From the IMG/VR virus record IMGVR_UViG_3300033182_001047, positions 1-21,293 of that record: a DNA stretch of 21,293 nucleotides; one strand, given 5' to 3'. This DNA is from a virus. Within the stretch, counting starts at the first letter, position 1; the number at the start of each line of letters is the position of its first letter. The position numbers and the translations under genes are program-made. This document shows positions 6,970 through 19,433 of this stretch, piece after piece. Under the pieces are notes generated by a model. That model worked only from the letters and a program-made list of their open reading frames with translations, was not told where the DNA came from and did no database searches.

Positions 6970-7665
6970 ATGGCATTACCGACAATATCAGTACCGACTT
7001 ATGAGTCTATCATTCCATCAACTGGTGAGAAGATAACATATAGACCATTCCTTGTCAAAGAAGAAAAGATTCTTTTGATGGCATTAGAAGGCAGAGATAA
7101 AAAAGAAATTAGTCTTGCAATACACAAAATCTTAGATTCTTGCGTAAATGAAGATATAGATTTTGGCAAACTTCCAATGTTTGACATTGAATTTTTGTTT
7201 TTGATGCTTCGTGCGAAGTCTGTTGGTGAAGTTATTTCATTTAGACTTGGTCACACAGGCGAAAGTGATTGTAATCACAAAACCGATATTGAAATTGATT
7301 TGAATGAAGTTCAAGTTATTGGTGAAATCAAAGACGGAAAAATTATGTTGGATGATAAGGTTGGAATCAAGATGCATTATCCAACAGTTTCGTCTTTAGA
7401 TAATGAAGTCAAAGGTAACGAAGATCTTCTAAGTGTAATTGCAGATTGTATTGATGTTGTGTTTGATCAAGAAGAAGTTTATGAAGACTTTACAAGAGAA
7501 GAACTTATTGAGTGGTTAGGAAATCTAAACCAAACTCAATATAGAAAGATAAATGAATTCTTTAGATCTGCTCCAAAACTTTCATACACTGCCAAGTGGA
7601 AATGTAAAGAATGTGGTGAAGAAGATGAGATGACAATTGAGGGTTTATATAATTTTTTTATGTAA
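6970..7665 (+). CDS. 26: gp26-like baseplate hub / tail assembly protein
   Basis: A 231-residue protein of the T4 gp26/gp51 baseplate family (Pfam T4_baseplate type). It shows the N-terminal YRPFLVKEEKILLMALEGRD block, PMFDIEFLFLMLRAKSVGE in the middle, and a C-terminal AKWKCKECGEEDEMTIEGLY segment with a CxxC pair. The Shine-Dalgarno GAGGT precedes the ATG. A run of seven T's (7653-7659), in phase with the last two Phe codons, lies just before the stop. The next gene is in the -1 frame, so a longer gp26-gp51 fusion of about 291 residues may also be made. Its position upstream of a tape-measure-like gene matches the tail assembly chaperones (lambda G/GT) of other tailed phages. Confidence 0.88.
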   Translation: MALPTISVPTYESIIPSTGEKITYRPFLVKEEKILLMALEGRDKKEISLAIHKILDSCVNEDIDFGKLPMFDIEFLFLMLRAKSVGEVISFRLGHTGESDCNHKTDIEIDLNEVQVIGEIKDGKIMLDDKVGIKMHYPTVSSLDNEVKGNEDLLSVIADCIDVVFDQEEVYEDFTREELIEWLGNLNQTQYRKINEFFRSAPKLSYTAKWKCKECGEEDEMTIEGLYNFFM

Positions 7666-7699
7666 GCATGATACATGACTCGTTGGCGAATATGTATCA
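7653..7699 (+). promoter_or_regulatory. Predicted -1 programmed ribosomal frameshift signal (gp26/gp51)
   Basis: The heptamer T TTT TTT occupies 7653-7659 in the zero-frame phase X XXY YYZ of gp26, two codons before its stop. After a -1 slip the ribosome reads Tyr-Val-Ser and enters the 7668 gene in frame. A 9-nt spacer is followed by a perfect 8-bp inverted repeat, TGATACAT (7669-7676) and ATGTATCA (7692-7699), with a 15-nt loop and a possible extra G-U pair. The downstream gene has no clear Shine-Dalgarno of its own. The pieces are all seen directly; their function is inferred. Confidence 0.55.
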
Positions 7700-7844
7700 G
7701 TTGAATTTCGCCCTTATGCAACATCATAAATATTCTTTGGCAGAAATTGAGAATATGATACCTTTTGAAAGAGATATCTACGTTGTTATGTTGCAACAAT
7801 ACTTGAAAGAACAAGAAGAACGTGCAAAGGCACAACAAGGATAG
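7668..7844 (+). CDS. 51: gp51-like baseplate hub assembly protein (small)
   Basis: A 58-residue protein from ATG at 7668 to TAG at 7844, beginning MIHDSLANMYQLNFALMQHH. The pattern HHKYSLAEIENMIPFERDIY, followed by a short helix and a charged tail (YLKEQEERAKAQQG), is typical of the small gene that follows gp26 in marine T4-like phages and is usually called gp51, the hub assembly catalyst. The ATG lies 2 nt after the gp26 stop and lacks a Shine-Dalgarno. Translation may depend on coupling or on a -1 frameshift from gp26. It ends 4 nt before the tape-measure-like gene, whose ribosome site (AAGGA) it contains. Confidence 0.78.
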   Translation: MIHDSLANMYQLNFALMQHHKYSLAEIENMIPFERDIYVVMLQQYLKEQEERAKAQQG

Positions 7845-7848
7845 GTAA

Positions 7849-9285
7849 ATGGCATTACCACAAGTAGATACACAAGACTCATCACTTGCTACCGCAGTTG
7901 CAGGTGGAATAATTGCAAACGAAATGGATAAAGCGGAAGATGAATTGCGTACAATGGACGCAACGCTTACCAATGTCTTTGGTTCACTTATAGATCTAAT
8001 TAGAGTAAATGAAAGAATTGCTAAAGCAGTTGAAGGTTTGTTCAACATACAACAAGAACAACAAACTGGTGAAGATCTGAGTAGAGGTTTAGAATTAGAA
8101 AAAGAGAGAGAAGCAAAACGTCCGCTGTCAGATTTTCTTGGGTACAAAAGTCTATTCCCAGAAATGAAAAAAGTCAAAGAAGGTGCATCAACAATCGGAC
8201 TTATTCTTGCCACGCTTTTAGGTGGTATTACTGCTTTCTATGATAAACTTCCGAATTGGGCAAAAGATCTTTTAGGTGGTAAACCAGGACAAGCAGCAAG
8301 AGCAGAAGCAGAGAAAAGGTATCCGACGCAATCTCCAGGGGAAGCAGCACCACCAACAAACATGTCTAAAACTATTCAGGACACTAGGGATGCGCTAAGA
8401 AATCCTTTTGATACCGACGAGAAGAAACTAGAAAGAACATTCGGTAATATTAGAACACAAGACGAATTCAATCAATTCTACAGAGGTTTCAATAGAGAAA
8501 GTGGTGGGGATTTATCAAAAAGGTTGAACACACATCTCACTGAAGGCGAGAAAGAAAAGTATATTGAACCAACCCTAAAAAGATTAGGTATTGATCCAAG
8601 TCAATTTTTTGCTGGCAAATATCAACCGACCCCTGCAAGCGTGACAAACAAACAAAAGATAATTGAAGCATTCAGATATCAATATTATGAAAACAAAGAG
8701 TACGATTGGTTGAGAAATGCTAGACCTATTGCCAAAGAAGCAGGTATGGGAGAAAGAGAATTTGTCCAAGCAGTAACTGGTAATAATGAATATGGGTATG
8801 AGGCATGGGACAGAGTTTCTGATATGCCAGTTGTTCCAGAAATGTTCCCAAATACTGTTGAAGCATTAGATCCAAACAGTTACGATGCTAGATTGATTGA
8901 AATGACTATTGATCAACACAGAGGTAAAGAATTTATTATTTCTACAGATAATAAAGGGGTTCCAATTTCACCACCTCCACCAAAAAGTAAAATGGATGCT
9001 CTTGGTGTTGGTGCTGCAGCATCAGGTAAAATTGATAGAAGCACCAGACCTGTTACACCATCAGCAAACCCAAATGTAACCAAAGCAATTTCAGAAAGTG
9101 GTTCTACTCCAACACAAGTTACCATAAACCAAAATGATAATAGTGTTCATACAAATACCGTTGCAGGTGGCGGTGGTGGTGGTCGTGGTACTGGTGTTAC
9201 AACTCCTTCTGCCACAAAGACAACCAGAAGTTCTGGTACTTTAGGAAACACAGAACTAACAGACTTTGTTCACGGATCTATGTAA
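7849..9285 (+). CDS. Tape-measure-like / baseplate hub protein (gp29-like position)
   Basis: A 478-residue protein directly downstream of the gp26/gp51-like pair, where the tape measure gene usually lies. The N-terminal 90 residues are helical and charged (DKAEDELRTMDATLTN, then LFNIQQEQQTGEDLSRGLEL). One hydrophobic segment at about 113-131 (STIGLILATLLGGITAFY) resembles the membrane-active segment of tape measure proteins. The middle (about 170-350) is polar. The C-terminus is Ser/Thr/Asn-rich with a six-glycine run near residue 442 and looks disordered. The length is below T4 gp29 (590), so the name is by position and architecture only. The ATG has AAGGATAGG upstream. Confidence 0.6.
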   Translation: MALPQVDTQDSSLATAVAGGIIANEMDKAEDELRTMDATLTNVFGSLIDLIRVNERIAKAVEGLFNIQQEQQTGEDLSRGLELEKEREAKRPLSDFLGYKSLFPEMKKVKEGASTIGLILATLLGGITAFYDKLPNWAKDLLGGKPGQAARAEAEKRYPTQSPGEAAPPTNMSKTIQDTRDALRNPFDTDEKKLERTFGNIRTQDEFNQFYRGFNRESGGDLSKRLNTHLTEGEKEKYIEPTLKRLGIDPSQFFAGKYQPTPASVTNKQKIIEAFRYQYYENKEYDWLRNARPIAKEAGMGEREFVQAVTGNNEYGYEAWDRVSDMPVVPEMFPNTVEALDPNSYDARLIEMTIDQHRGKEFIISTDNKGVPISPPPPKSKMDALGVGAAASGKIDRSTRPVTPSANPNVTKAISESGSTPTQVTINQNDNSVHTNTVAGGGGGGRGTGVTTPSATKTTRSSGTLGNTELTDFVHGSM

Positions 9286-11637: not shown

Positions 11638-11743
11638 GGTGCGCCTGCTTATGAATCATTTTATATCGATGCATTCTTGCTTTCTTCATCTTACCTTTCA
11701 CAAGAGCAAGCAGAAGTTTTTTATATCGCTTTTGTAGTTTCAC
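11615..11743 (-). CDS. Small very basic hypothetical protein (42 aa, GTG start)
   Basis: GTG at 11743 overlaps the TGA of the preceding gene (ATGTGA), giving 42 residues: KLQKRYKKLLLALVKGKMKK, then ARMHRYKMIHKQAHHEHLLED. More than a third are Lys, Arg or His. The overlap suggests translational coupling. Its function is unknown; the composition would fit a nucleic-acid- or membrane-binding peptide. The non-ATG start and small size limit confidence. Confidence 0.42.
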   Translation of the reverse strand: MKLQKRYKKLLLALVKGKMKKARMHRYKMIHKQAHHEHLLED

Positions 11744-12102
11744 ATCTCTACCCCATCAGGTTCAATCCCTGCAGGACGTAATGTACCAGCACCACCAGCA
11801 GCAACACAATGTAAATTTTCACCCAATTCATACATTAGAGTCCATGATCCATTGTCTGGGTTTACAAGTAAGGTCATTTCAATAGGTGCAGATTTTTTGT
11901 CGCCCATATTGATGTCACCATTGCCTTGCACAAAAGGTATTTCCCCAAACCCTTCTTCTAATGCATGTTTTCCGTCATAGTCAAAGCATTGAAGTACCAT
12001 TGGAACTTCAACGCCTTCTGGGTTTGCATAAGCACCACCAGACATTAGTATAATACCAAGTAGTGCTTTTGTCAACATATTATTTTTTGTCTTTTTTCTC
12101 AT
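11740..12102 (-). CDS. Exported small protein of a marine-phage family
   Basis: Up to 120 residues. The N-terminus is a signal peptide (LTKALLGIILMSGGAYA), with cleavage expected after AYA. The mature part has the pattern CFDYDGKHALEEGFGEIPF, then TLLVNPDNGSWTLMY, then LHCVAAGGAGTLRPAG. That layout (GE-IP near the start, NP..GSWTL, then C-A-G-RP at the end) recurs in small secreted proteins of marine T4-like phages and marine bacteria, none with a known role. There are two mature cysteines. The start could be ATG 12102 or the internal ATG 12078, which gives a tighter signal peptide; both overlap or touch the preceding gene's end at 12080. Confidence 0.75.
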   Translation of the reverse strand: MRKKTKNNMLTKALLGIILMSGGAYANPEGVEVPMVLQCFDYDGKHALEEGFGEIPFVQGNGDINMGDKKSAPIEMTLLVNPDNGSWTLMYELGENLHCVAAGGAGTLRPAGIEPDGVEM

Positions 12103-12415
12103 CTTTTTTGCCTGCTTTCACGTATGCGTCAGCACCGAAGAATGCACCAACAACGACAGATACTGCCATAAAGTATGTAGGTGCCATATCACCAATCACT
12201 CCAGATGCATTAGAGAAACCCAATGCCTCAGTTCCAAATACAAAGAGAGGATAAAGCAACATACCAAAAAGAGCAAACCATACCATTTTTCTCTGCTGAT
12301 CTCGTTTTGCGTCTTCATCTTCCATCTCCCGACGTTTGCCTTCAAGATAGATACGCATCTCCTCTTCTGAGATGATGCCATCGCCGTTTAGATCGACATC
12401 TTCCTTTTTGACCAT
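12080..12415 (-). CDS. Membrane protein with EF-hand motif
   Basis: A 111-residue protein. An EF-hand loop DLNGDGIISEEE lies at residues 8-19 with canonical ligands (D, N, D, I, E). A charged helix follows, then two hydrophobic segments at about 44-65 (MVWFALFGMLLYPLFVFGTE) and 77-97 (DMAPTYFMAVSVVVGAFFGA), and a Lys-rich tail (AGKKDEKKDKK). It is probably an inner-membrane protein with a cytoplasmic calcium-binding-like loop. The two-helix layout with a basic tail could fit a holin or antiholin, but nothing confirms that. It lies 11 nt downstream of the coiled-coil membrane gene, with GAGGG/CAGGA upstream of its ATG. Confidence 0.78.
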   Translation of the reverse strand: MVKKEDVDLNGDGIISEEEMRIYLEGKRREMEDEDAKRDQQRKMVWFALFGMLLYPLFVFGTEALGFSNASGVIGDMAPTYFMAVSVVVGAFFGADAYVKAGKKDEKKDKK

Positions 12416-12426
12416 TTCCTGTTCCC

Positions 12427-12879
12427 TCAGTTTGCTAATGGATTGTCTAGTGCTTTCTGGATTTTATCTTCCAGTTCTGCTTTTGTATTTTCAGTTCGTT
12501 GCTCAAACTTGTCCATTTTGTCTTCGAACCGAACAATTTTGTCATTGACTCGTTTTTCGATATCGTATGTCAACTGCTTGGTGTCACGAAGATTCCCTTC
12601 AATAGATTGTAACAACTTTGATTGTATTTCTATTTGTTGACTGGTTTCTGTCATCTGTTGTTGGTAAGATGCTAGATCCAAAGAGGCAATCTCTTCAATC
12701 TGTTGATACATGGTAAAACCAGCATACAACGCACCAATCACACTTGATAGTGCAGCAAAAACAGCACCAATAGTCATCGGTGTCATTTTGATACCGAATA
12801 ACTTGAATTCCTTGTTCTTTAGATTCTCAACACCTTCTTCGATGTTTTCGAGTTCTTCTCCGAGATCCCTATCAGACAT
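12427..12879 (-). CDS. Membrane-anchored coiled-coil protein
   Basis: A 150-residue protein. Residues 1-30 are acidic then basic. One membrane segment lies at about 33-58 (TPMTIGAVFAALSSVIGALY). The rest (about 60-145) is a long coiled coil (QQIEIQSKLLQSIEGNLRDT and FEDKMDKFEQRTENTKAELE). The topology is that of a single-pass anchored rod. Similar proteins occur in marine T4-like phages without known function. It could be a spanin-like or membrane-organising protein, but no spanin signal or lipobox is present. AAGGT precedes the ATG, 3 nt after the previous stop. Confidence 0.78.
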   Translation of the reverse strand: MSDRDLGEELENIEEGVENLKNKEFKLFGIKMTPMTIGAVFAALSSVIGALYAGFTMYQQIEEIASLDLASYQQQMTETSQQIEIQSKLLQSIEGNLRDTKQLTYDIEKRVNDKIVRFEDKMDKFEQRTENTKAELEDKIQKALDNPLAN

Positions 12880-12882
12880 AGT

Positions 12883-13056
12883 TTACACCTTATGTGTTTC
12901 AATTTTTCCCTTGCTATTATACAAGTCCAATTGAAAGTGTTGCTCAACTTGAGTTACTTTCTTTTTCGTCACCTCATCTTGTAGTTGTTTGTACTCAGTT
13001 GTACGAAACATGCTCAAATACATATCAAAGATCTGGTTGATCTTTGTTACTACCAT
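12883..13056 (-). CDS. Small hypothetical protein (57 aa)
   Basis: ATG at 13056 to TAA at 12883: MVVTKINQIFDMYLSMFRTT, then EYKQLQDEVTKKKVTQVEQH, then FQLDLYNSKGKIETHKV. It is amphipathic and helical in the first two thirds and ends with a short beta-like stretch. The ATG overlaps the TAG of the preceding exported-protein gene (ATGGTAG). The stop is 3 nt before the next start and provides part of its AAGGTG ribosome site. The tight fit on both sides and sensible composition support a real gene. The family is of the small cytoplasmic type seen in marine T4-like phages; its function is unknown. Confidence 0.72.
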   Translation of the reverse strand: MVVTKINQIFDMYLSMFRTTEYKQLQDEVTKKKVTQVEQHFQLDLYNSKGKIETHKV

Positions 13057-13352
13057 CTCTTTATATTTTCCTTTCCTGGATATTGTTTTTGTACTTCTTC
13101 CCAGTTCCAGTTACTTCCTGTGTACCATGGGTTTTCTTCCAACCACAACTTAGACTTGATATATTCTTCTCTAAGTTTACCTGACTTCCAATCATGATAA
13201 CAAGCAGATGCTTTGGAAAAATCATACATCAAAAATACAGAACCGTTGTAACCATGCGCTAAGAGGCATGCTTTCATTGCTTCATTATTCTCATTTGCAA
13301 ATGCTGTTGTCGACAATAAGCACAGCGCAAATATTTTAGTTTTCAAACCCAT
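13050..13352 (-). CDS. Exported small protein (about 100 aa)
   Basis: Started at ATG 13352 it encodes 100 residues. The signal peptide is MGLKTKIFALCLLSTTAFA, with cleavage before NENN. The mature part has two cysteines (AMKACLLAHGYNG and SKASACYHDWKSG) that may form a disulfide in the periplasm, and is Trp/Tyr-rich (LWLEENPWYTGSNWNWEEVQ). AAGGTGG lies 6 nt before this ATG; a frame from ATG 13361 is less likely because it would extend the n-region and lacks the site. It overlaps the end of the preceding gene by 17 nt. No family is recognised. Confidence 0.72.
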   Translation of the reverse strand: MGLKTKIFALCLLSTTAFANENNEAMKACLLAHGYNGSVFLMYDFSKASACYHDWKSGKLREEYIKSKLWLEENPWYTGSNWNWEEVQKQYPGKENIKRW

Positions 13353-13761
13353 TCTTACCACCTTGATTCATTCTTCTAAGTTGTTGGAGTTCTTCTTCCA
13401 ACCTCAATACTTCAAGTCGCTTCTTTCGTAACTCTAACTGATATAGCGAGTTACAATTGATTCGCTCTTTCGGTGCATCTAAAGGAATAACAATCCTTGC
13501 GTATACACCAACGTCTTTAGTTTGATTGATGTCGGCAGGATTGCTATCACCAAATGGACTTTCATAGTTGTCCACAATACCAGTCATACCAAACTCAAAG
13601 TTAGTTGCACCACCAATAGAGTTCTTGCAGTCTAAACCATCTTGTGTTCTAATACTGTCTTGTCCATAAGCAGAAGGTGCGTTTGGTATCGCCAAGTTTA
13701 GCGAACTTGTTTCAGCATATGCCGTTGATATCAAGAATAAACCAATCAATAATCTATACAT
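13336..13761 (-). CDS. Exported protein with C-terminal coiled coil
   Basis: A 141-residue protein. The signal peptide is MYRLLIGLFLISTAYA, followed by ETSSLNLAIPNAPSAYGQDS. The middle has a cysteine (GLDCKNS), a probable beta region with DVGVYARIVIPLDAP, and a second cysteine (RINCNSLYQ). The last 40 residues form a charged coiled coil (LELRKKRLEVLRLEEELQQL). The two cysteines probably pair. The layout (secreted beta domain plus helix) recurs in marine T4-like phages; its function is unknown. AGGTG is upstream. It lies 7 nt after the preceding gene. Confidence 0.78.
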   Translation of the reverse strand: MYRLLIGLFLISTAYAETSSLNLAIPNAPSAYGQDSIRTQDGLDCKNSIGGATNFEFGMTGIVDNYESPFGDSNPADINQTKDVGVYARIVIPLDAPKERINCNSLYQLELRKKRLEVLRLEEELQQLRRMNQGGKNGFEN

Positions 13762-13768
13762 TATTTTT

Positions 13769-14155
13769 TCACCTAAATTTAGAACATATCTTTGAAGAGA
13801 TTGCCGTCCTTACCTCGTCTGATTTCCTCAACTTAGACTTAGAACAAATATAGACTGCTCGTTCTTTATCTTTCTTGTTGATATATACATCAAACTTTAC
13901 ATGACCAAGATATTGTAATTTGAATACTTTATAAGACGAAACAAAAGGAATGGGATTCCAGTCCTTATCGAATAATCCTATCTCATAGTATTCTACATCT
14001 TGTCGCTTATTGAACATTTCCATTGTTGTTTGAACAACGTCTTGGAATGCTGACTGTTTCCATGTTGGATACGTTGGAACCATCTCGTGCGCCGAAACAC
14101 TAAGAGACAGGAAAACACCAATGAATCCAAAAAGTAACGTTTTCATAATATACAT
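13769..14155 (-). CDS. Exported protein (about 125 aa), unassigned
   Basis: A signal peptide (MKTLLFGFIGVFLSLSVSA) begins at ATG 14146; an upstream in-frame ATG at 14155 adds MYI. Neither has a clear Shine-Dalgarno. The mature part starts HEMVPTYPTWKQSAF and contains a region rich in aromatic residues (QYLGHVKFDVYINKKDKERA) and two cysteines (YICSKSK and KICSKFR) near the C-terminus. The pattern of small secreted protein with late cysteines is shared by its neighbours. I do not recognise the family. The stop is 7 nt before the next gene. Confidence 0.72.
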   Translation of the reverse strand: MYIMKTLLFGFIGVFLSLSVSAHEMVPTYPTWKQSAFQDVVQTTMEMFNKRQDVEYYEIGLFDKDWNPIPFVSSYKVFKLQYLGHVKFDVYINKKDKERAVYICSKSKLRKSDEVRTAISSKICSKFR

Positions 14156-14167
14156 AGGGTGCGCTCA

Positions 14168-14671
14168 CTATTGTGCAATACATACTGCTTCTACTACTGC
14201 AGTGTAATTACCTCCAGGAAATGCTTTACTGCCACCCATGGTTGCAGTGCTTGATGTTTTGAACCAAGTTGAACCAGTGGCAGTCAAATCATACTTGTCA
14301 GTATAACCCAACTCAATTTTATTTGTTTCATACGAACCCATACCAGTTGCATCTGACACTGCTTGTACTTCTGTATCACCAACCCAAGTTACTGTATCAG
14401 GTAATGAGGGACTTGATGTGAATGAAGTTGGAGCAGTGATTTCTGCATAGTATGCATCGGCAAGTGTAACGTCAAAACGTACAACTGCTAATTGACCACC
14501 ATCTGCTGGGGTTGTCGTCAATGTGTATGCATTAGGGTTGCCATAAACACCTGGAGTGTCAGTCGAAATAATACAACGTGACTGGACAGTACCTGTGATT
14601 GGAACGTCTTCCGCAAATGCAGATGTTGCACACAAACCAAGTGCCGCAACTAAAATTCCTTTTTTGAACAT
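14168..14671 (-). CDS. Exported beta-rich protein, pilin/spore-coat-like fold possible
   Basis: Started at ATG 14671, which has AAGGAG 8 nt upstream, it has 167 residues. The signal peptide is FKKGILVAALGLCATSAFA. The mature part is Thr/Ala/Gly-rich and beta in character, with one cysteine near the start (TVQSRCIISTD) and one at the end (YTAVVEAVCIAQ). This spacing and the final 'GNYTA.V' strand resemble the secreted beta-sandwich domains of fimbrial subunits and spore-coat-U-like proteins. That likeness is by pattern only. It could be an extracellular or virion-surface protein made late in infection. Confidence 0.72.
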   Translation of the reverse strand: MFKKGILVAALGLCATSAFAEDVPITGTVQSRCIISTDTPGVYGNPNAYTLTTTPADGGQLAVVRFDVTLADAYYAEITAPTSFTSSPSLPDTVTWVGDTEVQAVSDATGMGSYETNKIELGYTDKYDLTATGSTWFKTSSTATMGGSKAFPGGNYTAVVEAVCIAQ

Positions 14672-14697
14672 GTCGTTCTCCTTATTTGTTAGCATAA

Positions 14698-15606
14698 TCA
14701 TTTGTACTGCTCGTCCACCATTTTACGATGCAGTCCGTCTTGTGCCATATTTCGTAATGCTTTTCTGTTGTCTGGAATATTACCGCCATCTAAAGTAACA
14801 ACATCATTATAAGTACCACCAGCAATATATGCCGAATAATAAGAAGTCATATTCACTGCATTATTCATTTGTTGAAGAAGTTTGCCTTGATCAAATGCTT
14901 GAGAAAATAACGCAGAGTTATCTACCGCAGCAAGTGCTTTTTCTAAACGATCTTGCGTTTTCTTTTTCTTCAGTTCTTCTTGCTCAGCAAGTTCTTCTTC
15001 ACTAAGTAATTCTTCATCTTCAACCTCAATCAATTCTGAATCAACAGTCTGATCAAGATTTATATTCTCATCGTCCATCGCATTGTATATGGTAGAAGGA
15101 TCTACTTCAACAATCGTTGGAACAGGTTTTACATATCCAGGACAGTTTGGATCAAACTGTGGATCGTAACATGGGTCAACCTTATACAGATATACCACGT
15201 TTGGATCAGTTACCGATCCTGGACCTGTTACCTCAATTGAACCATCACCCCAAAGCGATCTGTTGCTTGGAACGACTGGCACAACTTTGTTTATCGTTGT
15301 TCCACCTAAAGATCCTGGACGCCATTCGTCTGTTTCTCTAAAGATATAACCAGTACCATTAGCATTTTCGTTCTGTACATTTACTGTTACAGAATCTTGA
15401 ACCTGCTTTTGTATGGTGTAGTTATACAACACACCATTTATATCAAGTCCAGGAACACCAGGAAGGATACTATCCATGTTCCAAAGATTCCCATCCACAG
15501 CAGCGTTTCCAGTTTGCCCATAGTACGGTGCTATGCTCTCAGAATAAGAGTATTGTGCCGAGCAAACCAAGACCGCCAAAAGTAGCAGTTTCTTTGATAT
15601 TAGCAT
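14698..15606 (-). CDS. Large exported protein with coiled-coil segment, unassigned
   Basis: A 302-residue protein. The signal peptide is about 1-22 (LISKKLLLLAVLVCSAQYSYS). The mature N-terminal half is beta-rich and Gly/Asn/Pro-rich, including RSLWGDGSIEVTGPGSVTDP and YKVDPCYDPQFDPNCPG, where two cysteines are close together. Residues about 190-240 are very acidic then Lys-rich and helical (VEDEELLSEEELAEQEELKK). The C-terminus (about 245-302) is mixed helical. The family occurs in marine T4-like phages without a known role. AGAGGAA precedes the ATG. It overlaps the upstream gene by 68 nt, a long overlap that points to a compact, coupled operon. Confidence 0.78.
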   Translation of the reverse strand: MLISKKLLLLAVLVCSAQYSYSESIAPYYGQTGNAAVDGNLWNMDSILPGVPGLDINGVLYNYTIQKQVQDSVTVNVQNENANGTGYIFRETDEWRPGSLGGTTINKVVPVVPSNRSLWGDGSIEVTGPGSVTDPNVVYLYKVDPCYDPQFDPNCPGYVKPVPTIVEVDPSTIYNAMDDENINLDQTVDSELIEVEDEELLSEEELAEQEELKKKKTQDRLEKALAAVDNSALFSQAFDQGKLLQQMNNAVNMTSYYSAYIAGGTYNDVVTLDGGNIPDNRKALRNMAQDGLHRKMVDEQYK

Positions 15607-16105
15607 CAGATTCCTCTAATTCCTTTTTAGTTGTTTCAACATGCGTTTCCCAACCAAGTCTTGCTGCATCACCAACCATACCATTATAAGGGCAAGGGGT
15701 TCCAGCATGCATCATAGCATCAAAGACTTTCTGATCTTGACACATTACAGATACAGCAGCGACCTTCATTCCCATATCGTACAAAGTCTTTGCATTCTTT
15801 AGTCTAATACAGTTGTCTTCAGTAAAGGTTGTGCCTGCCGAGATACCAAGAATCTGAGTTTGAACAGCACCAGCAACACCAATAGTACAAAGATCACTAT
15901 TATTACCAGCACTAAATTGTGGCGAGATGGCAGAAGGTGGTGGTTGCTCAATCTTAGTAGTCTGACTGCCATTAGTCGTCAGTGTACTGTTTGTTGTTGA
16001 GTGCGTCGCAATCGGATCGTCCAATGCGCCAGAACCAGTATATGTTTCTGCCATTACAGAGGTGGATAATACAAGTGCAACCATCAGTGTAAATATTCTA
16101 ATCAT
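15539..16105 (-). CDS. Exported protein with conserved 'MGMKVAAVSVM' helix and C-terminal membrane segment
   Basis: A 188-residue protein. The signal peptide is MIRIFTLMVALVLSTSVMA. A Ser/Thr-rich linker leads to QPPPSAISPQFSAGNNSDLC. The conserved core is VQTQILGISAGTTF, then NCIRLKNAKTLYDMGMKVAA, VSVMCQDQKVFDAMMHAGTP and CPYNGMVGDAARLGW, with four or five cysteines or near-pairs. The C-terminus ends in a hydrophobic segment (TFGGLGLLGTILLF). The core pattern is familiar from hypothetical proteins of T4-like cyanophages and other marine myoviruses; no function is known. It is the second gene after the late promoter at 16292-16299, with AGGT upstream. Confidence 0.78.
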   Translation of the reverse strand: MIRIFTLMVALVLSTSVMAETYTGSGALDDPIATHSTTNSTLTTNGSQTTKIEQPPPSAISPQFSAGNNSDLCTIGVAGAVQTQILGISAGTTFTEDNCIRLKNAKTLYDMGMKVAAVSVMCQDQKVFDAMMHAGTPCPYNGMVGDAARLGWETHVETTKKELEESDANIKETATFGGLGLLGTILLF

Positions 16106-16369: not shown

Positions 16370-17317
16370 TTACTTGTCGACAGTAATCAAACCAAGTTCT
16401 TCAAGTTTACCTTCTGGTTTTGCCATCTTCTTGAACAAGTCATCATACGCTTCAATACCAGGGATCTTACCAATGTGCTCTTGTTTGATATAGTAGAACA
16501 ATGGACGTGAGATTGGATATGATCCATCTGCAATAGTTTCAAAGTCTACATCAACACCATTGATTGTAGCACCCTGCACTTTATCACGATTGTTATCTAG
16601 GAATGAGAATCCAAAAATACCAAAGCGAGTCTTTTCAGCAGTTAGTTTCATAATAACCACATTGTCGTTCTCACCAACTTCAGTTACATGACCATCCTCA
16701 CGCAAGGATGAACACATAGTCTTATAACCATCAGCACCTTTCTTTGGCATACCATAATCTTTCTTACAAGTCTTATGCATAACAAGTTCTACAAATGCAT
16801 CACGAGTACCAGAGGTTGGTGGTGGTGCAAGAATATCAATCTTGATGTTCGGTAAATCTGGATTGATTTGATTCCAGTGTGTATATGGATTAGGAACCCA
16901 ACCACCATTTACACGAACAACTTTAGAGATTGCTTTGAATAATTCTTCTTTTGTTACAGAGATCTTTTCACCACCTTTGCTATTAGCAAATGCGATACCA
17001 TCAAAACCAATTAGTCTTTCAATTGGAGTAACACCATTCTTTTTACATAAGTCGATTTCAGTTTGTTTTATTTGACGAGATGAGTTTGTAACGTCTGGTG
17101 TATCAACACCAATACCTTTACAGAACAACTTCATACCACCACCTGAACCTGTTGATTCAATAACTGGTGCTTTGTATGTACCATATTTTCCGAGAGTTTC
17201 TGCCACGACTGTAGCGAATGGATAAACTGTTGATGAACCTACGATTTGAATTTGATCACGAGCGAATGCTGAAGTAGTGATTGCCAACGCAGCAATTGCC
17301 AATAGAGTTTTTTTCAT
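16370..17317 (-). CDS. pstS: PstS, periplasmic phosphate-binding protein
   Basis: A 315-residue protein. The signal peptide is MKKTLLAIAALAITTSAFA (1-19). Phosphate-site motifs are visible: GSSTVYPFA at 27-35, ESTGSGGGMKLFC at 54-66, NSSRQIK at 78-84 and PPTSGTRDAFVE at 167-177. These are the loops that hold phosphate in PstS of the Pst ABC transporter. The length and all motifs are intact, so it should be functional, delivering phosphate to the host PstCAB complex. Phage-carried pstS is well known in marine myoviruses. It appears to be its own unit, with a TATAAT-type -10 upstream and terminators on both sides. The KMFK-type start has TAGGAAAC upstream. No convincing Pho box is present. Confidence 0.95.
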   Translation of the reverse strand: MKKTLLAIAALAITTSAFARDQIQIVGSSTVYPFATVVAETLGKYGTYKAPVIESTGSGGGMKLFCKGIGVDTPDVTNSSRQIKQTEIDLCKKNGVTPIERLIGFDGIAFANSKGGEKISVTKEELFKAISKVVRVNGGWVPNPYTHWNQINPDLPNIKIDILAPPPTSGTRDAFVELVMHKTCKKDYGMPKKGADGYKTMCSSLREDGHVTEVGENDNVVIMKLTAEKTRFGIFGFSFLDNNRDKVQGATINGVDVDFETIADGSYPISRPLFYYIKQEHIGKIPGIEAYDDLFKKMAKPEGKLEELGLITVDK

Positions 17318-17361
17318 TTTTTGTTTCCTATGTTACGTGCAGTCCTATACTACACAAGCAT

Positions 17362-17367
17362 ATTATA
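17362..17367 (-). promoter_or_regulatory. pstS: Possible sigma70 -10 element for pstS
   Basis: TATAAT on the minus strand lies 45 nt before the pstS ATG and downstream of the preceding terminator (17401-17423), so pstS can be transcribed on its own. No good -35 hexamer is found at 16-18 nt spacing, so an activator or a phage-modified polymerase may be needed. Confidence 0.5.
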
Positions 17368-17400
17368 ACCCAATAATATTTCGAGAATATTTCTTACAAT

Positions 17401-17423
17401 AAAAAAGCACCCGAAGGTGCTTT
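17401..17423 (-). terminator. Intrinsic terminator after the tusA-dsrC unit
   Basis: The minus strand reads AAAGCACC-TTCG-GGTGCTTT, an 8-bp stem with a TTCG loop (17423-17404), leading into a run of six T's (17406-17401) that partly pairs. It separates dsrC and the small gene after it from pstS. Confidence 0.88.
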
Positions 17424-17559
17424 AGAGTGGTAATATGGTAAACACCACTGTCGGATATATTGTAGCAAGGTGCGCTATGCAATGTAGAGCAAGATCATAA
17501 CTGGCATATACTGCGTCAACAGTAACACCTGATCCTTGATGCACTACAATATAACCCAT
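17422..17559 (-). CDS. Possible small hydrophobic protein (45 aa) after dsrC
   Basis: ATG at 17559, 4 nt after the dsrC stop, opens 45 codons: MGYIVVHQGSGVTVDAVYAS, YDLALHCIAHLATIYPTVVF, then TILPL. The composition is credible, with a small beta/helix pattern (VDAVYASYDLALHCIAHL). The upstream CGGG is a poor ribosome site, so translation would rely on coupling with dsrC. The stop overlaps the terminator stem. It does not resemble a Dsr or Tus protein. It is either a small phage gene or a chance frame in a 140-nt spacer. Confidence 0.4.
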   Translation of the reverse strand: MGYIVVHQGSGVTVDAVYASYDLALHCIAHLATIYPTVVFTILPL

Positions 17560-17563
17560 CCCG

Positions 17564-17875
17564 CTAGATACAACCAGTTGGTTTTGGTAAACCAGCAATC
17601 TTACATGCTTGCTTTCCTGGACCATATGGGAACAACTCATAAAGGTATTTTTGATTGCCTTTATCTTTACCCATCTTCTTTCCAACTGCTTTAGTCAATA
17701 CACGGATAGCAGGTGCTACCATATACTCATCGTAATACTCACGCAAGAAGTTTACAATTTCCCAATGCTCATCTGAAAGATCAATACCTTCAGACTCTGC
17801 AAGTTCAACTGCAATCTCTGGTGTCCAATCATTTAGATTTGCCAAATAACCTTCTTCGTCTACTGCATAACTCAT
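17564..17875 (-). CDS. dsrC: DsrC, sulfur-carrier protein with both reactive cysteines
   Basis: 103 residues from ATG 17875, which has AGAGGT 7 nt upstream; an in-frame ATG at 17902 is less likely because DsrC proteins begin at MSY. Family motifs are DEEGYLANLNDW, DEHWEIVNFLREYYDEY, APAIRVLTKAVGKKMG and KYLYELFPYGPGKQACKIAG, followed by LPKPTGC. CysA is C102, the penultimate residue, and CysB is C91, 11 residues earlier. TusE, the tRNA-thiolation relative, keeps only CysA, so this is DsrC-type. DsrC carries sulfane sulfur as a trisulfide to or from dissimilatory sulfite reductase; in sulfur oxidisers it receives sulfur from DsrEFH. Phage-borne dsrC is known from viruses of marine SUP05-type sulfur oxidisers. 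It lies downstream of tusA, separated only by a tiny possible gene. Confidence 0.95.
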   Translation of the reverse strand: MSYAVDEEGYLANLNDWTPEIAVELAESEGIDLSDEHWEIVNFLREYYDEYMVAPAIRVLTKAVGKKMGKDKGNQKYLYELFPYGPGKQACKIAGLPKPTGCI

Positions 17876-17891
17876 GCTACATACCTCTTCA

Positions 17892-17975
17892 TTATTTGCC
17901 AATCTGATTCTTCACGAATCGGATCATTTTAGGAACGGGACACTTATCCCACCATAGTTGGAAGATTGTGTTCAT
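17892..17975 (-). CDS. Possible 27-aa microprotein between tusA and dsrC
   Basis: ATG at 17975 with a strong ribosome site (AAGGAG, 6 nt spacing) opens 27 codons (MNTIFQLWWDKCPVPKMIRF, then VKNQIGK), ending in TAA at 17892. It fills the space between tusA (stop 17986) and dsrC (start 17875). The peptide has a Trp pair and a Cys-Pro-Val-Pro followed by a basic helix, which resembles the CPxP region of TusA (CPLPILRAKKFL). The good ribosome site is its best support. No family is recognised, and 27 codons can be open by chance. Confidence 0.5.
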   Translation of the reverse strand: MNTIFQLWWDKCPVPKMIRFVKNQIGK

Positions 17976-17985
17976 TTCTTACTCC

Positions 17986-18213
17986 TTATGTTTTCTTGAT
18001 ATAAAATTCAAACTTACCATTCATTTGACCAGACTGTTCAAGTGTGTTTCCAGTTTGACTACAAAATGCTTCAAAGTCTTTGATGCTTCCTGGATCTGTT
18101 GTAATAATTTTCACCACATCACCTTGATTCATTCCTGCTAAAAACTTCTTAGCACGAAGGATAGGCAAAGGACAATTCAGACCACTTGCATCTAATTCTT
18201 CTTGATAATCCAT
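17986..18213 (-). CDS. tusA: TusA-family sulfur-carrier protein
   Basis: 75 residues, the usual TusA/SirA length. The hallmark CPxP motif is C14-P15-L16-P17 (LDASGLNCPLPILRAKKFLA), with C14 the persulfide-carrying cysteine. The rest follows the alpha/beta TusA pattern (GDVVKIITTDPGSIKDFEAF, CSQTGNTL, KFEFYIKK). TusA accepts sulfur from a cysteine desulfurase or rhodanese and passes it to TusBCD/DsrEFH, then TusE/DsrC. Here its neighbour is a DsrC with both cysteines, so two soluble carriers of the same relay are co-encoded, without DsrEFH. GGAGA is upstream. A terminator hairpin ends only 23 nt before the ATG, leaving no room for an ordinary promoter after it. Confidence 0.94.
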   Translation of the reverse strand: MDYQEELDASGLNCPLPILRAKKFLAGMNQGDVVKIITTDPGSIKDFEAFCSQTGNTLEQSGQMNGKFEFYIKKT

Positions 18214-18230
18214 ATTAGTTTCTCCGTGTG

Positions 18231-18254
18231 AAAAAAGGGATGCCGAAGCATCCC
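18231..18254 (-). terminator. Intrinsic terminator after amtB, directly before tusA
   Basis: The minus strand GGGATGC-TTCG-GCATCCC (18254-18237; a further G precedes it) is a 7-bp TTCG-loop stem followed by six T's (18236-18231). It lies 28 nt after the amtB stop and 18 nt before the tusA ATG. tusA therefore depends on read-through or on a promoter that overlaps the hairpin. Confidence 0.9.
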
Positions 18255-18281
18255 CTTATCTTTATTTAGCATATTCTAATA

Positions 18282-19433
18282 TTACTTTTTCATAAAGTCA
18301 GGATAGGCAGTACCAGTGCCTTCCCATAAATCAGAACCTGCTAGTTCTTCTTCTTCGCCAACACGAATGCCGATAGTGTACTTCAAAATTGTCCATACAA
18401 TCAAAGAAGCAACAAATACGAATCCAAAGATTGCGCCAGTACCGATCAACTGTGCCATTAGAGTAGCATCAGCGTTGAGTACAGGAACAAGTAGCAGACC
18501 CAGAATACCTGCGACACCGTGAACCGAGATTGCACCGACTGGATCATCGACACCCCATTTCTCAAGTAATGCCATAGCAGGAACTACGATCAAACCACCT
18601 AATGCACCATACAATGCTGCCATTTCTGCAGAAGGTGTCAGAGGATCAGCAGTAATAACTACCAAACCTGCCAACGCACCATTTACAGTAGCATTCAACG
18701 CAGTCTTACCTGTAAACAACTTAGCAAGTAGCATAGCAACAATCAAACCTGCTGCCGCTGCTGTGTTAGTGTTTACAAAGATTTGAGCAACAGCATCTGC
18801 GTTTTCGTTACCCAAGATAGATAACTGCGAACCACCATTGAAACCAAACCAACCCATCCAAAGGATCAACATACCAAGTGCTACTTGACCAGTATTAGAA
18901 CCTGCGATGTGTTGAGGTTTACCGTTCTCATCATACTTACCTTTACGAGGTCCAATCAACAATACTGCTGCCAGTGCTGCTGCCGCACCTGCCATGTGTA
19001 CGATACCTGATCCAGCAAAGTCAAAGAAACCTGCTTCTGATAGGAAACCACCACCCCATGACCAAGAACCTTGGATTGGATAGATGACTGCTGTAAACAC
19101 AGCGGCAAAGACTAAGAATGACCATAACTTCTTACGTTCTGCCACCGCACCTGAAACAACCGACATTGCCGTTGCTACAAATACAACTTGGAAGAAGAAG
19201 TCTGACATAAGAGCATGATCTTCTGGTTGTGACCAACCACCATACATTAGACCGTATCCAGCGAAGAGATACGTTAGAGATGCCACTGCATAAAGAGCGA
19301 CGTTTTTGACTAGGATTTCAGTTACGTTCTTTGTACGAACAGAACCTGCCTCCAACATAGTAAAACCTGCTGCCATCCACATTACTAGCACTGCTGACAT
19401 GAGGAAGTAGAAGGTGTTTAGTGAATATTCCAT
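18282..19433 (-). CDS. amtB: AmtB ammonium transporter
   Basis: 383 residues with about 11 membrane segments. Hallmarks are all present: the N-terminal FYFLMSAVLVMWMAAGFTML-EAG, D138 in FFDFAGSGIVH, and the twin pore histidines H146 (GSGIVHMAGA) and H305 (ISVHGVAGILG). The C-terminal cytoplasmic tail (GIRVGEEEELAGSDLW, then TAYPDF) has the pattern that binds the PII protein GlnK. It has no cleavable signal peptide, unlike E. coli AmtB (428 residues). It should move ammonium into the infected cell under host PII control. AAGGAG lies 5 nt before the ATG. A terminator hairpin sits 21 nt upstream and another follows it, so it is an isolated unit. Viral amt genes are known but uncommon. Confidence 0.96.
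   Translation of the reverse strand: MEYSLNTFYFLMSAVLVMWMAAGFTMLEAGSVRTKNVTEILVKNVALYAVASLTYLFAGYGLMYGGWSQPEDHALMSDFFFQVVFVATAMSVVSGAVAERKKLWSFLVFAAVFTAVIYPIQGSWSWGGGFLSEAGFFDFAGSGIVHMAGAAAALAAVLLIGPRKGKYDENGKPQHIAGSNTGQVALGMLILWMGWFGFNGGSQLSILGNENADAVAQIFVNTNTAAAAGLIVAMLLAKLFTGKTALNATVNGALAGLVVITADPLTPSAEMAALYGALGGLIVVPAMALLEKWGVDDPVGAISVHGVAGILGLLLVPVLNADATLMAQLIGTGAIFGFVFVASLIVWTILKYTIGIRVGEEEELAGSDLWEGTGTAYPDFMKK

Follow-up and report, generated by a model that had tools for sequence, protein, structure and literature searches.

In the tail assembly chaperones of lambda (gpG/gpGT) and HK97 (gp13/gp14), ribosomes slip back by one base at the end of a first open reading frame (ORF) and continue into a second ORF lying in the -1 frame (Xu, Hendrix, Duda, 2004). 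In both phages the chaperone pair stands before the tape measure gene. For T4, the chaperone genes are reportedly 26 and 51, and work from 2022 is said to indicate that frameshifting appears conserved in several T4-like groups, with T4 itself using separate genes. T4-like tail assembly chaperone genes were identified in that year (Vladimirov, Gautam, Davidson, 2022; Virology 566:9-15, 10.1016/j.virol.2021.11.003), and later papers attribute to this study the polyT slippery sequences of T4-like TAC-N genes (PMC12846349) or cite it for T4-like phages with separate short and long chaperone genes (PRFect; PMC10274946/PMC10885494). Here we describe a locus of this type in the IMG/VR virus record IMGVR_UViG_3300033182_001047, from an uncultured relative; the whole stretch of 21,293 nt is referred to below as the window. 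Judging from the sequence, a gp26-type gene and the gp51-like ORF that follows it are very probably joined by a -1 programmed ribosomal frameshift that yields two forms of a G/GT-type tail assembly chaperone. A first-pass annotation of the window had predicted this slip and had added that no description was known for T4-type gp26/gp51. The latter statement does not stand: as the 2022 study is represented by the papers citing it, this kind of arrangement in T4-like phages is already published and not new, and since polyT slippery sites are already credited to that work, the finding is a correct and independent rediscovery. The features of the locus are as follows.

6970..7665, plus strand: gp26-type gene, short chaperone form (TAC-N), 231 amino acids, ATG to TAA; PF12322, phrog_150, strong Shine-Dalgarno sequence.
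7653..7659, plus strand: slippery heptamer T TTT TTT in the phase of gp26; read from the sequence and kept in 79/79 readable IMG/VR relatives.
7659..7844, plus strand: predicted -1 frame extension (TAC-C, "gp51-like"), YVS plus 58 amino acids with stop; sequence, phrog_634, tail of phrog_150, alignment.
7669..7699, plus strand: 8-bp RNA stem-loop, probable stimulator; fold, pairing and compensatory changes in relatives, structure excess over shuffles.
7849..9285, plus strand: 478-amino-acid gene in the tape measure position, identity unproven; position and size, no family match.

The last zero-frame codons of gp26 are AAT (7651), TTT (7654), TTT (7657), ATG (7660) and TAA (7663), and T TTT TTT at 7653-7659 lies in the X XXY YYZ phase of the gene with nothing but ATG and TAA after it. 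Reading in the -1 frame from 7659 gives TAT GTA AGC ATG and onward, that is, Tyr-Val-Ser followed by 58 residues up to the stop at 7842-7844, and a slip would join gp26 through residue 230 to these 61 residues in a fusion of 291. The ATG of the gp51-like ORF is at 7668, two bases past the gp26 stop. These readings agree with the first-pass annotation, and its gene names held in profile searches as well: gp26 matches PF12322 (5e-62, 209.8 bits against a cut-off of 24.5) and phrog_150 (9e-67), the downstream ORF matches positions 60-116 of the 121-position profile phrog_634, "baseplate hub assembly catalyst" (E 1.1e-26), and the extension also matches the tail of phrog_150 (7e-7).

The conservation of the junction was checked across relatives. 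Loci were collected with gp26 as the sole query, and the heptamer therefore played no part in their selection; the resulting 99 loci comprise the window, 79 IMG/VR relatives whose gp26 end was readable (gp26 39-60% identical) and 19 phage records. All 79 IMG/VR relatives carry an in-phase T TTT TTT or T TTT TTC, 0-8 codons before the gp26 stop, followed, where complete, by a -1 ORF of 57-68 amino acids. Overall, an in-phase heptamer with a homologous ORF in the -1 frame is present at 93/99 loci, as T TTT TTY in 92 and as T TTT TTG in Rhizobium phage RL38J1; the carriers include cyanophages, Sinorhizobium phage phiM12, the KVP40-like Vibrio phages V05 and Va3, Acidovorax phage ACP17, Stenotrophomonas phage BUCT608, Rhizobium phage LG08 and Cronobacter phage S13. 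Homopolymers are error-prone in sequencing, and the junction might have been a sequencing or assembly error in one contig, but the same frame relation at these 93 loci, complete isolate genomes included, refutes this explanation, to which we give a negligible probability.

Part of the conservation belongs to the protein, as F229 and F230 are invariant in the alignment and Phe-Phe is kept even in T4 gp26, where its codons are non-slippery. It could be argued from this that the T-run merely encodes a conserved Phe-Phe, and that ribosomes terminating on gp26 reinitiate at the ATG at 7668 to make gp51 as a small protein of its own. Because Phe-Phe is conserved as protein, the heptamer has to be tested on codons, which was done on a non-redundant set of 75 loci less than 85% identical. 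Phe-Phe demands neither TTT as its first codon nor a preceding codon ending in T; yet the first Phe codon is TTT in 75/75 loci, against 50 expected from the genes' own codon usage, and the codon before it ends in T in 75/75, against 44 expected. Under each gene's own codon usage the joint probability of the heptamer choice is about 10^-35 if the 75 loci are treated as independent, which they are not fully. Elsewhere in gp26, T TTT TTY occurs in phase at 10 of 17,321 codon positions. A chance heptamer is rejected by the conservation together with these codon-usage statistics.

The same set of loci bears on a different way of reaching the same fusion, in which bases are gained or lost in transcripts by slippage of RNA polymerase. 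RNA polymerase can slip on a run of seven T, and the protein outcome could then be the same. In 32/75 loci, however, the site has the form T TTT TTC, whose six T followed by C are short for polymerase slippage, and a site kept strictly in codon phase and followed by an RNA stem fits ribosomal slippage; we regard the polymerase explanation as very improbable.

An independent gp51 gene would need a start of its own. The ATG follows the gp26 stop directly in the window and in many relatives, and gp51 is listed as a gene in its own right in several GenBank records. No ATG, GTG or TTG is found, however, within 30 nt after the slip site in 21/75 loci, and of the gp51 ATGs that are present, 2% have a Shine-Dalgarno sequence upstream (threshold -4 kcal/mol), compared with 91% of gp26 starts and 49% of the starts of the following gene. 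In the window the gp51 ATG scores 0, the gp26 start -6.3 and the start at 7849 -5.3, which bears out the earlier statement that the downstream ATG lacks a Shine-Dalgarno sequence, and no conserved ribosome site for gp51 has emerged among the relatives. The gp51-like ORF, moreover, is always in the -1 frame. A separate gp51 gene is disfavoured by the absent start codons and ribosome sites, and we consider it highly unlikely. As for existing annotation, a joined frameshift gene is annotated at the locus in 0/17 annotated phage records (L082-L100), and in several of them (CBA120, ACP17, S13, S-CAM7 and Se_AO1) the -1 ORF carries no annotated gene at all.

Downstream of the heptamer, after a 9-nt spacer (7660-7668), the stretch 7669-7676 (TGATACAT) pairs perfectly with 7692-7699 (ATGTATCA) over 8 bp, exactly as the first-pass annotation had read it. 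In the RNA folding that it had proposed for the region, the stem is present in the minimum-energy structure of 7660-7710 (-11.9 kcal/mol), and the fold z against dinucleotide shuffles is -1.5 for 7660-7710 and -2.4 for 7645-7710. Structure among the relatives was scanned at 71 loci by sliding 45-nt folds against synonymous-codon shuffles of the -1 ORF: the mean z is -1.14 +/- 0.18 at 3 nt and -1.11 +/- 0.15 at 9 nt past the slip, the latter offset being outside the gp26 overlap in most loci, with values near 0 at 27 nt and near -0.15 at larger offsets, so that the excess fades within 30 nt. Structure at this place speaks against a separate gp51 start, start sites being usually without it. Among the 27 sequences of the clade to which the window belongs, 87.0% of stem cells are paired, compared with 18-55% when the stem is slid; compensatory changes are seen at one pair (A-U, G-C, G-U) and at another (G-C, C-G), and the covariation score is matched by 2/500 shuffles. 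The stem sequences vary between clades: L064 and L067 have a 13-bp stem, L095 has one of 11 bp, and L026 and L033 have others. The structure evidence is good and not final, as the statistics lean on related sequences. On balance we lean towards the stem being a selected stimulator whose position is kept while its sequence turns over, the clades having built different hairpins within the chaperone-tail coding sequence, a few bases past a slippery site that they share. The recurrence of such a stem downstream may be new as a detail, no description of it having been found, with the 2022 study represented by the papers that cite it, and it offers a testable stimulator.

Several observations weigh against the frameshift reading. 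First, 6/99 loci, two of Tevenvirinae (T4 and Karamvirus) and four Ackermannviridae-like, lack the heptamer; the general absence of heptamer-free relatives thus has exceptions in these two groups. In T4 and Karamvirus, gp26 ends in non-slippery Phe codons and is followed by gene 25, which is consistent with a separate gene for the long form. In CBA120, Se_AO1, cp18 and Vibrio phage K441, the Ackermannviridae-like members, the -1 ORF is kept (that of CBA120 being gp51-like by profile) without a standard heptamer, gp26 ending in ...ATT TTC ATT TAA or ...CTT TTC AAG TAA (L084, L096, L092, L089); these loci either slip at another site or initiate the ORF separately. Second, the position of the window's gp51 ATG directly after the gp26 stop allows coupled re-initiation, for the window alone. 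Third, stem strength is uneven among relatives, and at some loci there is no stem. Fourth, the tape measure identity of the gene at 7849..9285 is unproven: the claim that the pair precedes a tape-measure-like gene is borne out by position and size, and not by family, the 478-amino-acid product having no Pfam or PHROG match. In relatives a variable gene, often of 480-930 amino acids, is found at the same place, directly or after an ORF of about 107 amino acids, and in the phiM12 record a gene at this place is noted as similar to tape measure proteins.

The chaperone role of gp26 is suggested by its predicted fold. In the AF2 model (pLDDT 88), residues 1-87 align at Z 7.5 to HK97 gp13 (2ob9), YqbN (3klu) and rbstp2171 (3fgx), the next unrelated chain being at Z 2.7; YqbN belongs to a Pfam tail-chaperone family. 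Foldseek of the gp26 model against the PDB gave no significant E-value, and the chaperones stood out from noise only after VIA realignment. Searching by sequence for relatives of gp26 and gp51 with solved structures returned nothing meaningful, and the Pfam scan of gp51 gave no chaperone family. It is by the modelled fold that gp26 appears linked to tail chaperones, sequence methods having given no link, and with Z under 8 the match is moderate evidence. T4 gp51, in profile comparison, matches phrog_150 over positions 14-280, and therefore combines a gp26-like part and the same C-terminal piece; in T4 the fusion exists as a single gene. Four gp26 cysteines, C58, C101, C212 and C215, are invariant or nearly so, and the C-terminal pair gives weak zinc-ribbon matches; as far as sequence can suggest, these cysteines may bind metal.

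Taken with the conserved heptamer, phase and frame, the second ORF's often missing start codon and nearly always missing ribosome site, and the structure just downstream, these data strongly support the G/GT-type frameshift that had been proposed, and from them we infer the slippage itself, its efficiency and the chaperone role. Most ribosomes would stop at 7663 and release gp26 (TAC-N, 231 amino acids). In a minority, Phe-tRNA would occupy both sites on U UUU UUU while the ribosome is held by the downstream stem, and a slip of one base backwards would let it read on in the "gp51" frame to give a TAC-NC of 291 amino acids. The two forms would then act in tail assembly as lambda G and GT do, coating the tape measure protein and delivering it. 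Independent loci thereby support ribosome slippage as a means of making the tail chaperone in T4-like phages outside the T4 subfamily, as in lambda-like phages, and the result suggests that the annotation of "gp51" in public records of these phages should be changed to make it one part of a joined gene.

Further features of the record were noted on the minus strand. Host-like metabolic genes at 16370-19433 encode a PBP/PstS-type phosphate-binding protein, DsrC, TusA and an Amt ammonium transporter, of which DsrC with TusA suggests a sulfur-oxidising host. A 440-amino-acid protein (360-1682) has two stretches that match families named "baseplate hub and tail lysozyme", at about half the profile length, and may be without the lysozyme domain. 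A run of small proteins with apparent signal peptides occupies 11740-16105; the proteins of this run that were scanned have no Pfam match, and their PHROG matches are weak or to families of unknown function.

Compared with the systems described so far, the window pair shares with lambda and HK97 a predicted -1 slip at the end of the first ORF and a presumably like position in the gene order, the identity of the next gene being unproven, and the N-terminal fold of HK97 2ob9 resembles that modelled for gp26. Unlike those systems, it belongs to a T4-like phage, has a U UUU UUU/C heptamer, has no detectable sequence similarity to them, and its gp26 has an extra C-terminal part with conserved cysteines. 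T4 gp26 corresponds to the short form, and T4 gp51 to a gp26-like protein with the same C-terminal motif as in the window; there, however, genes 26 and 51 are two divergently oriented genes and the gp26 end has no slippery heptamer, unlike the window, which resembles the TAC-N/TAC-NC genes of T4-like phages, as later papers describe them, in its polyT slippery sequence within the TAC-N gene (Vladimirov et al., 2022).
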